NCBI GenBank assembly: GCA_019120515.1
Contig: DWUY01000057.1
Span: 1-33,653, forward strand
DNA length: 33,653 nt
From: Candidatus Blautia avicola
GTDB lineage: Bacteria; Bacillota; Clostridia; Lachnospirales; Lachnospiraceae
Reading direction: 5' to 3'
This document shows, piece after piece, positions 1,676-6,241 of this stretch. Numbering within the stretch: the first letter of the stretch is position 1; each line of letters starts with the position of its first letter. Below the pieces are notes generated by a model. The model had not been told where the DNA came from. It made no database searches and saw nothing but the letters and a program-made list of their open reading frames with translations. The position numbers were made by a program, and so were the translations under genes.

Positions 1676-4600
1676 TTACCTCCCTCCTGACCGCAGGTTC
1701 TGTCTTGCCTGCGCCGACACTACCAGTTCATCCAGAAGCGTCCCGCCTACATATACCGGGATCACGATGTTTCCCTGCGGACTGGAAAATCCCGCCAGTG
1801 CTTCCGATACCGCAAAAGAGATCCCGGAGATTAGGTCGGACATACTCCCGCCGGATAGAGCGCCATCGGCATAACCATACTCTGAACCGTTCACCTTCGG
1901 GGAAATCACCATGTCCGAAGCTACATCCCGGACAGCTTTCTCCACCAGGTTCCGGTTCTTCTCAATGCCGCTCGCCAGCCCCTTCATAAAGTCCGGCATC
2001 CAGGTTTCATAATCCGCCAGAGGCCCCTCATCCGGAGCCGAGAAATGCAGGAAGGAGCGGATACGGTCAGCCAAACCGGAAACCGTGTTGATCACACTCT
2101 GGATCATGCTGGAAATCCCGTTGATCAGCCCCTGAATGAAATCTTTCCCCCACTGAAACGCCTGCCCCGGCAGTCCGGTGATGAACCGGATGGCGGAAGA
2201 AAATCCATTGGAGACCACGGAATACAGCCCGGAAAGGGACGAGCCGATCCCGGAAACCATCCGTTGGAAGGCAGACACCGCTGCTTCACGCAATGCGGAT
2301 GCAATATTCACCACCGTGGTCTTGATGCCGTTCCAGACAGAAGACGCTGTCTGCTTCATCGCCGACCAGATCTGAGAAGCGAACTGGGACAGAGCCGAAA
2401 GCACCGTCTCCACGCCCTGCTTCAGTCCCGAAGCCGCAGAAGTCACCACCTGCCGGATTCCTGACCAGATCTGGGAGGCGGCATTTCTGATATTGTTCCA
2501 GATATTGGCCGCATCAGACGCAAGCTGTGAGAAATTTCCCGTCACCAGGTCGATCAGCAGAAGCACCGGAGCCAGAATCACATTTTTCAGCAGTTCAAAA
2601 GCGCCGGAGGCAATGTCACAGATCCCCGACCAGATGCCCTGCAGGGTATTTTTCGCGTTCTCCCACAAAGAAGTAATCGTTGTCACTACCAGCTGGACAA
2701 TGGGATTCTGCCGGATCGCGTTCCAAGTATTCGTGAAAAATGCGGATACCTGTGACCACAGGCCGCTCCACCAGTCCGGGATGGCAGAAAAAAAGCCGAT
2801 GAAAGTCTGAAACGCCGCCGGGATGGTCTCCGTGAAAAAGACCACCAGCCCATTCCATAATTCCATCAGCTTTTGGAATACCGACTGCCACAAGTTCCCG
2901 AACCACTCCGTAATCGCGCCCCAGTTTTTCACAATAGCGATAATCCCGGCAATGGCCGCTGCCACCCCGGCAATAATACCGATCACCGGGAGCAGGGAAA
3001 TGTTCAGCGCCCCGAAGGAAACTGCCAGGGCCGCAATTACTGGTGTCAATGCGGTAAACGCCACCAGCAAAGCCCCAAGGATTACCACAAAATTCTGCAC
3101 AGGCTCCGGCAGCATGCCGAATACCTCGCTCACTGCCGTAATAATGGCCACCAATGACGGCAGCACCACATTGGCCAGCTCCACGATCTTTTCACCCAAA
3201 GGAACCAGCGCCTGCTGCAACTTCCTTGTATTGGCCTCCATCTCCTGCATAGGCGTCTGCGTCTGGCTGAATAAGTTCTGCGCAGATCCGGCAACACTGT
3301 CATAGGTCTCTCCCACAGAAGTCAGGGAAGTAATAAATTTCAGGTTCCCATCCTCAGCCATGGTACCGAAGGCCTGTGCCGCCATGTTCAGGGCTTCCTG
3401 CTGGCTGGTGCAGTTTCCGATATCCGCCACAATGGAATCGATCACCTGCTTCTGGGTAGCTTCCCCGTTCTGCCATGCCAGGAACAGGGACTGTGTTTTC
3501 TGGGAATACAGGTCAATGGAATCCCCTATAGTTCCATCCGCCAGGCGGGTAGTTACCTCATTAATGGCGTCATTGACCTTGTCCAGATTGTAAGCGCCGC
3601 CCTGCAGGCCGTTCTGCAGAAGCTGGAAATACTCGGAAGCGGAATACCCCGCCTGCTCAAATTTCCCCGCATACTCAGACAGGTTATCGCCCAGCTCATT
3701 GGTCTTGTCCAGGCCGTTCTGGGTACCCCGGACAATATAATCCATGGCCTCCTGGGCGGTCAGGCCATACTGCTTCATCAAAGAATTGACGCCCCGGAGG
3801 GTCTCATTCATGTCAATCCCGTACAGTTCTTCCAGAGTCAGCGCCTGCTTCGTCAGGTTAGTCAGGTCGGTATCTCCCAAATCGCCCAGGTTCTTCTTTA
3901 CCATGATGACCGCTTCCGCCACAGCGTCCATGCTCTGGCCCACGCCGGAGCCGTACACATTTTTTACGATCTCCGCGCTGGCTTCCGCCGCCTCCCCGGT
4001 CTCCCCGAAGTAGGCATTTACCTTGGAAACGGCTGTCTCTGTCTCCGCGTAGGCATTCACAGCCTTATCGCCCACATCCTGGATCTTATCCCCGACCACA
4101 GACAGCTGATCAGCGGCTTCCATCAGGGCCGCACCCTTGGTGGCCTGGGCAATCTCCCCAATGTTATCCGCGGCGTCCTGGGCAGCGTCCCCCACATCAT
4201 TCAGATCCTCGATCAGGTTCCGTACCGCCTGCCCGTCATCCACCGTATCCAGGGCATCCGTCAGCTGTTTGATATCCGCCTTTCCTCCGGTAACCGCTTT
4301 CCCGATCTTCTCCACGGCTGTTTTCAGCTGATCGGAAGAAACCGTCCCGTTGCGGATCGCCGTCACCAGGCGGCTCCCCAGCACATCGGCGTAATCATCC
4401 ACACTGGAACCCGTCGCCGCGAACAGCTTGTTCAGCCGCTCCGTATTGGACGCCAGCCGCTCCTGCTCTGACTGCAGGCCGGAAAGATCCGCCTGATATC
4501 GGTTCAGCACTCCGCGGGTTTCCTCTACCTCCCGTTGAAAAGCCATGTACTGGTCTTTCCCCAGGTCGCCCCGCTCAAAGGCTTTCGTCACATTCTCCTG

Positions 4601-4834
4601 AGCCTGTTCCAGTGCTTCCAGCTTCTTTTCCGTATCTCCGATGGCCGCCTGCAGAAGTTCCTGCTTCTGGGCCAGAAGGATGGTATTGGATGGATCCAGT
4701 TTCAGAAGGTTATTCACATCCCGAAGCTGACTCTGGGTCTTCTTTATGGAATTGTTCACTGTGGAAAGCGATTTTTCCAGTCCGCTGGTATCGCCGCCGA
4801 TCTCCACTGTAATACCCTTGATCCGGCTTGCCAT
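1676..4834 (-). CDS. Phage tail tape measure protein
   Basis: 1052 aa; coiled-coil N-terminus, TMP-like helical core (AYAETETAVSKVNAYFGETGEAAEASAEIVKNVYG), central hydrophobic segments, repeated IWSGI/SIWNGI motifs, LHFSAPDEGPL segment typical of Firmicutes tape measure proteins. Confidence 0.95.
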   Translation of the reverse strand: MASRIKGITVEIGGDTSGLEKSLSTVNNSIKKTQSQLRDVNNLLKLDPSNTILLAQKQELLQAAIGDTEKKLEALEQAQENVTKAFERGDLGKDQYMAFQREVEETRGVLNRYQADLSGLQSEQERLASNTERLNKLFAATGSSVDDYADVLGSRLVTAIRNGTVSSDQLKTAVEKIGKAVTGGKADIKQLTDALDTVDDGQAVRNLIEDLNDVGDAAQDAADNIGEIAQATKGAALMEAADQLSVVGDKIQDVGDKAVNAYAETETAVSKVNAYFGETGEAAEASAEIVKNVYGSGVGQSMDAVAEAVIMVKKNLGDLGDTDLTNLTKQALTLEELYGIDMNETLRGVNSLMKQYGLTAQEAMDYIVRGTQNGLDKTNELGDNLSEYAGKFEQAGYSASEYFQLLQNGLQGGAYNLDKVNDAINEVTTRLADGTIGDSIDLYSQKTQSLFLAWQNGEATQKQVIDSIVADIGNCTSQQEALNMAAQAFGTMAEDGNLKFITSLTSVGETYDSVAGSAQNLFSQTQTPMQEMEANTRKLQQALVPLGEKIVELANVVLPSLVAIITAVSEVFGMLPEPVQNFVVILGALLVAFTALTPVIAALAVSFGALNISLLPVIGIIAGVAAAIAGIIAIVKNWGAITEWFGNLWQSVFQKLMELWNGLVVFFTETIPAAFQTFIGFFSAIPDWWSGLWSQVSAFFTNTWNAIRQNPIVQLVVTTITSLWENAKNTLQGIWSGICDIASGAFELLKNVILAPVLLLIDLVTGNFSQLASDAANIWNNIRNAASQIWSGIRQVVTSAASGLKQGVETVLSALSQFASQIWSAMKQTASSVWNGIKTTVVNIASALREAAVSAFQRMVSGIGSSLSGLYSVVSNGFSSAIRFITGLPGQAFQWGKDFIQGLINGISSMIQSVINTVSGLADRIRSFLHFSAPDEGPLADYETWMPDFMKGLASGIEKNRNLVEKAVRDVASDMVISPKVNGSEYGYADGALSGGSMSDLISGISFAVSEALAGFSSPQGNIVIPVYVGGTLLDELVVSAQARQNLRSGGR

Positions 4835-4961: not shown

Positions 4962-4990
4962 TTGACTTTTGAGTAGATCCGTGCTAGACT
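4962..4990 (+). promoter_or_regulatory. Strong sigma70-type promoter for the Abi-associated RNA
   Basis: TTGACT (4962-4967), 17 nt spacer, TAGACT (4985-4990) with an extended -10 TG at 4982-4983. Confidence 0.8.
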
Positions 4991-4996
4991 CTGTCT

Positions 4997-5064
4997 TAGT
5001 GATCAGGTTTCAGATACTCGTGAGGACTGAGACCGGGGGAGGACCTGCGGGCCCTCCTTTTTTT
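4997..5064 (+). ncRNA. Candidate small structured RNA (possible RNA antitoxin) upstream of the Abi_2/HEPN gene
   Basis: Starts about 7 nt after the -10. Stem 5006-5013 GGTTTCAG / 5027-5034 CTGAGACC (8 bp, one G-U). Intrinsic terminator GGAGG-A-CC-TGCG-GG-C-CCTCC (5038-5057) followed by T7 (5058-5064). No ORF inside. Confidence 0.75.
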
Positions 5065-5092
5065 ATTCTGAAAACAGGAAGAGGGGGAAGCT

Positions 5093-6028
5093 TTGTCAAA
5101 ACCGTTTCTTACATACGACCAGCAGCTTGATAAACTGCAGAACGAAAAAAAACTTCAAATTCATGACCGGGCAGCCGCAAAAGAAATCCTAAAAAATATC
5201 GGATATTTTTCCTTGATCGGAGGATACAAAGCACCGTTCATCAACCCGATGACACGTATTTACCAGAACAATACTTCTTTTGAGGATATCTATGCCCTGT
5301 ACCAGTTTGATCTTTCCCTGCGTGAACTTGTTTTCAAATATTTGTGTGAAATAGAATGTAAAATCCGGCAGCTTGTTTCCTACCATTTTTGCAGTCTCCA
5401 TGGCGAACAGCAGACCGCATACCTCACTCCTGGGAATTATAATCATATAAAAAAGAACTCTGCTGATATCACCCGCCTGATCCAGATCTTATCCTACCAG
5501 GCAAATAAAAATACGGAACATAATTATGTTGTCCACCAACGGAAGGTTTACCATAACGTTCCTCTATGGGTGCTGACCAACACCCTGACTTATGGACAGA
5601 TTTCCAGGTTTTACGCCTTGCTTCCCTTCCAGCTGCAAAGCGGTATCAGCAAAGATTTTCCAGGCGTTAATGAAAAGAACCTGGAACGTTATCTGAAAAT
5701 TCTTACCCTGTTCCGGAACGTATGCGCACATAACGAGCGGCTTTATTCTTTCCGGACCCAGATTGATTTTCCAGATACAATACTTCATCAGAAACTGAAT
5801 ATACCAAAAAAAGGGAATCAGTATCTTTCTGGAAAACGGGATCTGTTCGGTCTGGTCATCGCTTTCCGTTACCTGCTTCCCAAACAGGACTTTCTGGAAT
5901 TTAAACGTACATTAATCGGTATTATCAATAAGTACACAAAAAACAGCGGACAGATCAGTGAATCTTCCCTTTTGGATATAATGGGATTCCCTGCAAACTG
6001 GAAAGATATTACCCGCTACCGCATTTAA
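5093..6028 (+). CDS. Abi_2 family (AbiD/AbiF-like) HEPN-domain abortive infection protein
   Basis: 311 aa; Abi_2-type N-terminus (KPFLTYDQQLDKLQ...AAAKEILKNIGYFSLIGGYKAPF), ALYQFDLSLRELVFKYLCEIECKIRQLVSYHF core, and RNVCAHNERLYSF containing the HEPN R-x4-H motif (R208-H213). TTG start with a GAGGGGGAAG ribosome-binding site. Confidence 0.9.
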   Translation: MSKPFLTYDQQLDKLQNEKKLQIHDRAAAKEILKNIGYFSLIGGYKAPFINPMTRIYQNNTSFEDIYALYQFDLSLRELVFKYLCEIECKIRQLVSYHFCSLHGEQQTAYLTPGNYNHIKKNSADITRLIQILSYQANKNTEHNYVVHQRKVYHNVPLWVLTNTLTYGQISRFYALLPFQLQSGISKDFPGVNEKNLERYLKILTLFRNVCAHNERLYSFRTQIDFPDTILHQKLNIPKKGNQYLSGKRDLFGLVIAFRYLLPKQDFLEFKRTLIGIINKYTKNSGQISESSLLDIMGFPANWKDITRYRI

Positions 6029-6055: not shown

Positions 6056-6241
6056 TCAAAACCTGTCAAAATCCTCCTGCGTAGCCACCACCGCATATTT
6101 ATGCTCATCGTTCCGGCTTTCCACATACATATCATTCACCATTCCGATGGTCAGCAGATCCAGATCCCGGATGGACAGCCCCAGCTGCACACACCGCAGG
6201 AGGAACAGATGTGTGCTCTCAGGTCTATCCCCCTTGGTAAA
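6056..6241 (-). pseudogene. Remnant of phage tail-assembly chaperone (C-terminal part)
   Basis: Open - strand frame ...FTKGDRPESTHLFLLRCVQLGLSIRDLDLLTIGMVNDMYVESRNDEHKYAVVATQEDFDRF*; resembles the T region of tail-assembly chaperones normally just upstream of the TMP. No proper N-terminus before rlmD. Confidence 0.6.

Follow-up and report, generated by a model that had tools for sequence, protein, structure and literature searches.

A conserved structured RNA upstream of one Abi_2 clade, a putative RNA antitoxin class separate from the Rfam abiF RNA

The window analysed here, a 33,653-nucleotide stretch of DNA of the gut bacterium Candidatus Blautia avicola (contig DWUY01000057.1), carries an Abi_2 gene on the plus strand, preceded by a promoter and a small RNA and bordered on both sides by phage genes on the minus strand:

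1676..4834, minus strand: tape measure protein of the phage tail, bounding the cargo slot on the left (PHROG tail tape measure, E 2.7e-140; PF10145)
4962..4990, plus strand: sigma-A type promoter TTGACT-17-TAGACT with extended -10 (sequence; position kept among copies)
4962-4967, plus strand: -35 element TTGACT (sequence)
4985-4990, plus strand: -10 element TAGACT with TG upstream and a spacer of 17 nt (sequence)
4997..5064, plus strand: structured small RNA of class R1, ~67 nt, two hairpins, putative RNA antitoxin (covariance model R1, 94.7 bits)
5006..5034, plus strand: hairpin 1, with a 7-8 bp stem and a 13-nt loop (sequence, alignment)
5035..5064, plus strand: intrinsic terminator hairpin with a CC-UGCG-GG tip, plus T7 at 5058-5064 (sequence, folding, alignment)
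5081-5087, plus strand: ribosome-binding site-like GAGGGGG (sequence)
5093..6028, plus strand: HEPN protein of the Abi_2 / AbiD-AbiF family with 311 aa and a TTG start codon, putative RNase toxin (PF07751, E = 8e-47; PADLOC AbiD, E 1.2e-65)
5714..5731, plus strand: HEPN catalytic motif RNVCAH, R208-H213 (sequence, alignment)
6059..6241, minus strand: phage frame bounding the slot on the right, putative tail assembly chaperone named by its position (phage similarity)

Transcription of the RNA would likely start at 4997/4998, and the Abi_2 ORF begins 28 nt past the RNA terminator. In a readthrough mRNA, the Abi_2 ribosome-binding site could additionally pair with the terminator's CCUCC arm (5053-5088), giving an alternative fold.

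The protein had been assigned to the Abi_2/HEPN family in the original prediction, and it carries both the PF07751 match and the HEPN R-x4-H motif, in which R208, N209, A212 and H213 are invariant across 26 aligned relatives. The nearest solved structure is PDB 8VZ6, detected with an E value of 3.3e-17 from the single sequence and of 2e-62 over the full length with a profile, and the HEPN R and H of the two proteins align. Identity to the AbiF of phage phiC2 is only ~27%.

The surroundings of the gene are those of a phage. The window shares ~92% DNA identity with viral contigs L058, L059, L193 and L199 and 90.5% with L057 and L198; this similarity spans Abi_2 and stops at ~6209, just inside the putative tail chaperone frame. 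The gene next after the phage part is a host uracil-5 RNA methyltransferase, an adjoining host gene that suggests a truncated prophage with the locus as its cargo. The more diverged phages L192 and L194 hold the RNA and Abi_2 in the same slot between tape measure and chaperone. The locus, which lies in a prophage, may serve in anti-phage defence.

Scores computed on the window alone do not distinguish the RNA from background: the promoter scan returned 4 sites where 4.1 were expected, the RNA's own terminator escaped the terminator scan (its hairpin has an A.C mismatch), and the folding z-scores of -0.5 to -1.2 do not go beyond those of shuffled sequences. The case for the RNA therefore rests on comparison. 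Taken by themselves, the promoter scan and folding energies would fit a chance resemblance to a promoter and a terminator ahead of an ordinary abi gene, with no functional RNA. To compare, 52 relatives of the locus were retrieved from bacterial genomes. Alignment of the regions upstream of Abi_2 homologues, proposed with the original prediction, revealed R1 directly 5' of Abi_2 in close relatives and in others down to 37-41% protein identity. The arms of hairpin 1 (GGUUUCAG / 13-nt loop / CUGAGACC) enclose a loop in which the pair C5017-G5025 is nearly invariant. Across an alignment of 18 sequences 92.8% of the cells pair, with both-sided changes in 11 of the 17 pairs; in a larger alignment of 60 distinct sequences, whose figures are flattered by its having been fitted to the covariance model, pairing is 92.9%, compensatory changes occur in 15 of the 17 base pairs, and the covariation score is 0.530 against 0.227 for shuffles and at most 0.143 for slid partners. 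A promoter with at least 9 of 12 matches lies at the same spacing before hairpin 1 in 92% of 39 Abi_2-linked copies, compared with 6.5% of shuffles. The arrangement of promoter, RNA, terminator, ribosome-binding site and Abi_2 that had been noted at 4962-6028 is thus present in the sequence, with its promoter and RNA structure both supported by comparison. The chance explanation is refuted by the covariation, the fixed promoter position and the clade-wide conservation described below, and we consider it practically negligible. Judged by this comparison, R1 is a genuine, conserved structured RNA. The R1 covariance model, built from a single Abi_2 clade so that wider relatives may escape it, finds matches in 37 of 200 Lachnospiraceae genomes as well as in other Clostridia. 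Several weak matches (L109, L110, L221-L223 and L227) resemble bare terminators and were discarded.

The original prediction noted reports that AbiF pairs with a conserved ncRNA. In line with this, a conserved RNA does lie beside Abi_2; its identity with the reported abiF motif, RF03085, did not hold. Searches of Rfam at gathering thresholds assigned no family to the window or to any of 16 relative loci, and RF03085 left the window RNA unmatched even with E values up to 10 allowed. The RNA sbrA, which scored 20 bits of the 45 needed, was rejected as a chance match. As positive controls, RF03085 matched the antitoxin RNA region of phiC2 (37.6 bits) and an RNA lying 50 nt 5' of a third Abi_2 gene of the same genome on contig C324 (36.7 bits, cut-off 37); the R1 model matched neither of these RNAs. 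Both classes are consequently found in one genome, R1 at the window (C225) and at C188 and RF03085 at C324. The two are alike in being small hairpin RNAs directly 5' of Abi_2 that also occur apart from it, but their architectures differ: RF03085 is a hairpin of 37 nt that combines a 3-bp inner stem, an 11-nt loop and a 6-nt bulge, whereas in R1 a stem of 7-8 bp carries a 13-nt loop and the terminator is separate, and the models fail to cross-detect. By covariance models, then, R1 is an RNA class separate from RF03085. On the best reading it represents a new, putative class of RNA antitoxin, its newness being judged against Rfam 15, with an earlier description elsewhere possible.

The distribution of the RNA follows the phylogeny of the protein. 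On a tree of 101 Abi_2 proteins, with RNA labels assigned by a stem/loop pattern, itself matched by 3 of 2440 shuffled upstream regions, R1 lies upstream within a single clade (support 96/90), in 36 of its 38 rows and in none elsewhere, and the R1 label changes 3 times compared with 29.4 in shuffles. The two exceptions within the clade are L077, which has the RNA on the downstream side, and L188, whose diverged sequence forms a very long branch. Proteins linked to RF03085 fall in clades other than that of R1. In one Abi_2 clade, R1 thus replaces Rfam's abiF RNA. This confinement of the label to a single clade is the coupling expected of an RNA-protein pair, and a tie between a conserved ncRNA and one clade of Abi_2 proteins is what characterises AbiF RNA toxin-antitoxin systems such as RCd22-AbiF. 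Among 91 Abi_2 matches tabulated from 200 Lachnospiraceae genomes, a count that leaves out some weak fragments, R1 is upstream of 26, RF03085 of 5 and neither of 60, meaning either that some Abi_2 proteins do without an RNA partner or that further classes have yet to be found. Two Abi_2 genes without either RNA (L028 and L055) are preceded by a different terminator-like hairpin, suggestive of further RNA classes.

Type III toxin-antitoxin systems (ToxIN, TenpIN and CptIN) place an RNA antitoxin, a terminator and a toxin on one transcript. The type III-like layout claimed in the original prediction, one promoter followed by RNA, terminator and toxin ORF, was confirmed by sequence, alignment and promoter position, with the antitoxin role of the RNA putative here. 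The window differs in that its toxin would be an HEPN Abi_2 protein rather than a ToxN fold, and in that R1 forms no tandem repeat array of the kind that the toxin processes in type III systems: there is one copy in the window, as is usual, and the only tandem pair precedes Abi_2 in L106 (242-387), where it recalls the classical type III antitoxin repeats.

The closest characterized relative is RCd22-AbiFCd of C. difficile prophage phi027 and phage phiC2, for which experiments established a single promoter, an ncRNA, premature termination and readthrough into abiF (PMC12373285). AbiF of C. difficile is toxic and becomes inactive without R202/H207, and RCd22, acting both in cis and in trans, neutralises it by binding it directly (PMC12373285). 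Our locus shares with it the prophage site, a single SigA promoter, an ncRNA with a terminator, the layout for readthrough into the Abi_2 gene and the HEPN RNxCAH motif (PMC12373285). However, the C. difficile RNA contains two RF03085 motifs, detected by that model and not by R1 as noted above, and the system sits in the lysis module, whereas the window copy lies between tape measure and tail chaperone. A second relative is PbAbiF-AbiFr (Zilberzwige-Tal et al. 2025, as presented in PMC12737573 and PMC12373285); 8VZ6 is named as the PbAbiF-ncRNA complex in the former, a review. It resembles the window protein over the full length of the family, with aligned HEPN R and H and an ncRNA partner; the proteins, which are what was compared, are about one quarter identical.

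By analogy with these systems, the locus is probably a two-component, type III-like toxin-antitoxin or abortive-infection module carried by a prophage within its tail operon, with the RNA restraining the Abi_2 RNase; we hold this reading with good confidence. One promoter, present in the observed architecture, would mostly yield the ~67-nt RNA ending at its own terminator. The folded RNA would bind the Abi_2 dimer and block the HEPN RNase site, as suggested by the two relatives that have been studied. The toxin mRNA would come from occasional readthrough of the terminator, leaving free RNA in excess of toxin, and the terminator would, by analogy, set the RNA:toxin ratio. If the RNA were lost, for example when a phage halts host transcription, the freed Abi_2 could then cut RNA and arrest the cell. 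Toxicity of this Abi_2 and its neutralisation by R1 are both extrapolated from the relatives. The original prediction of an RNA-regulated HEPN RNase system is, in this sense, supported by the conserved, covarying RNA, with the toxin and antitoxin activities attributed by analogy. Since AbiF has been reported as an ancestor of Cas13 (PMC12737573), the RNA might alternatively act as a guide or activator that directs Abi_2 toward defined targets, like a crRNA. R1 is, however, conserved along its whole length, with no variable or spacer-like part, and the studied AbiF systems are described as RNA-inhibited, not guided (PMC12373285, PMC12737573), which makes a guide role very improbable.

A larger share of the probability, albeit still a small one, falls to a third possibility, that the RNA acts purely in cis, as a leader or attenuator within the abi mRNA that senses a signal through termination and antitermination, a mechanism put forward for the abiD1 leader, with no antitoxin role. 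The RNA does sit in the 5' region with a terminator preceding the ORF, RCd22 acts in cis too, and the 5' region of abiD1 controls translation (PMC12373285). Against such a leader stand the RNA of the relative, which works in trans, and the copies that lie 3' of Abi_2 (downstream only in L077, and on both sides of the gene in L099, L108 and L206). Complete copies without an Abi_2 gene point the same way. Among Lachnospiraceae R1 was located at 52 places, 22 of them with no PF07751 match within 2 kb; inspection divided these 22 into 2 bare terminators, 2 contig ends, 4 with an Abi_2 fragment kept and 14 without trace, 'solitary' being judged over the few kilobases around each RNA. Abi_2 is likewise missing from 6 of 12 RNA-bearing viral contigs (one of which, L202, spans only 336 nt past the RNA) and from 8 of 12 further credible matches across Clostridia. 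The solitary copies (28 sequences) show 92.7% pairing with covariation, about equal to the whole set, both sets having been found with the same R1 model, which favours paired sequences. A promoter with at least 9 of 12 matches precedes 9 of the 19 solitary copies tested. Solitary RNAs that keep their pairing speak against a purely cis-acting leader, and we regard that explanation as unlikely relative to an antitoxin. Short tblastn matches that might have been taken for Abi_2 remnants near orphan RNAs fall on the translated RNA itself and were dismissed.

RNA copies without Abi_2 were recorded at L066, L073, L079, L081, L085, L089, L094, L096, L101, L103-L105 and L107, and at L212, L213, L216-L218, L220, L225 and L226; L220 and L226 are two solitary copies in one genome, the former just 5' of terminase-like phage genes. 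On viral contigs L196 (2551-2903) and L197 (5096-5440) the promoter and RNA are kept in the slot seen in the window, with no Abi_2; a 72-aa Phd_YefM-like ORF (PF02604, E 2.5e-5, below its cut-off) lies 3' of the RNA and a Phd-ParE pair on its other side. Neighbours of solitary RNAs include ParE-Phd, AbiE, zeta toxin, a PBECR4 nuclease, DUF3990, KilA-N/ORF6N and terminase genes, a listing and not an enrichment, in which the AbiEi, HicB and terminase neighbours of the wider-Clostridia set were named by eye. L103 and L218, from two genomes, have a common order of R1 RNA, small ORF and zeta-toxin-like kinase. At L063 (1505-1574) a 70-bp segment shares 98.6% identity with the RNA of the window, although its context is unrelated: promoter, similar flanks and Abi_2 are all missing, and the RNA seems to have moved alone. 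RF03085 behaves similarly, with 12 of its 18 matches not beside Abi_2. RF03085 RNAs over the Rfam cut-off and with no adjoining Abi_2 lie at G114:C50:19833-19869, G010:C195:4539-4575 and G036:C47:8294-8330. At L150 (1501-1640) all of Abi_2 that is left behind an RF03085 RNA is its C-terminal motif (MGFTNDWK), with AbiE-like genes adjoining, an apparent toxin deletion that left the RNA behind.

Solitary RNAs may act as decoys in counter-defence, or they may be relics of an anti-addiction role. More specifically, and tentatively, for we place it somewhat below an even chance, solitary R1 and RF03085 RNAs could be trans-acting antitoxins, the phage and mobile-element copies silencing the AbiF of a host or rival prophage and the chromosomal copies countering addiction. 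Our literature search found no account of solitary RNA antitoxins of AbiF. Phage sk1 reportedly shields phage 712 from AbiF (Rince 2000, cited as reference 112 in PMC12737573), and neither model finds an RF03085 or R1 copy in sk1.

Taken together, AbiF-type toxins, the proposed ancestors of Cas13, would have at least two classes of RNA antitoxin that are mutually dissimilar by covariance model, and a covariance model now exists for an ncRNA without a match in Rfam 15. Each RNA class is tied to its own protein clade, and swapping RNAs between clades would reveal what determines an AbiF inhibitor. The solitary copies, finally, make RNA counter-defence against AbiF directly testable, the foremost case being the phage that carries the RNA and a Phd-like antitoxin gene where its relatives keep the toxin.
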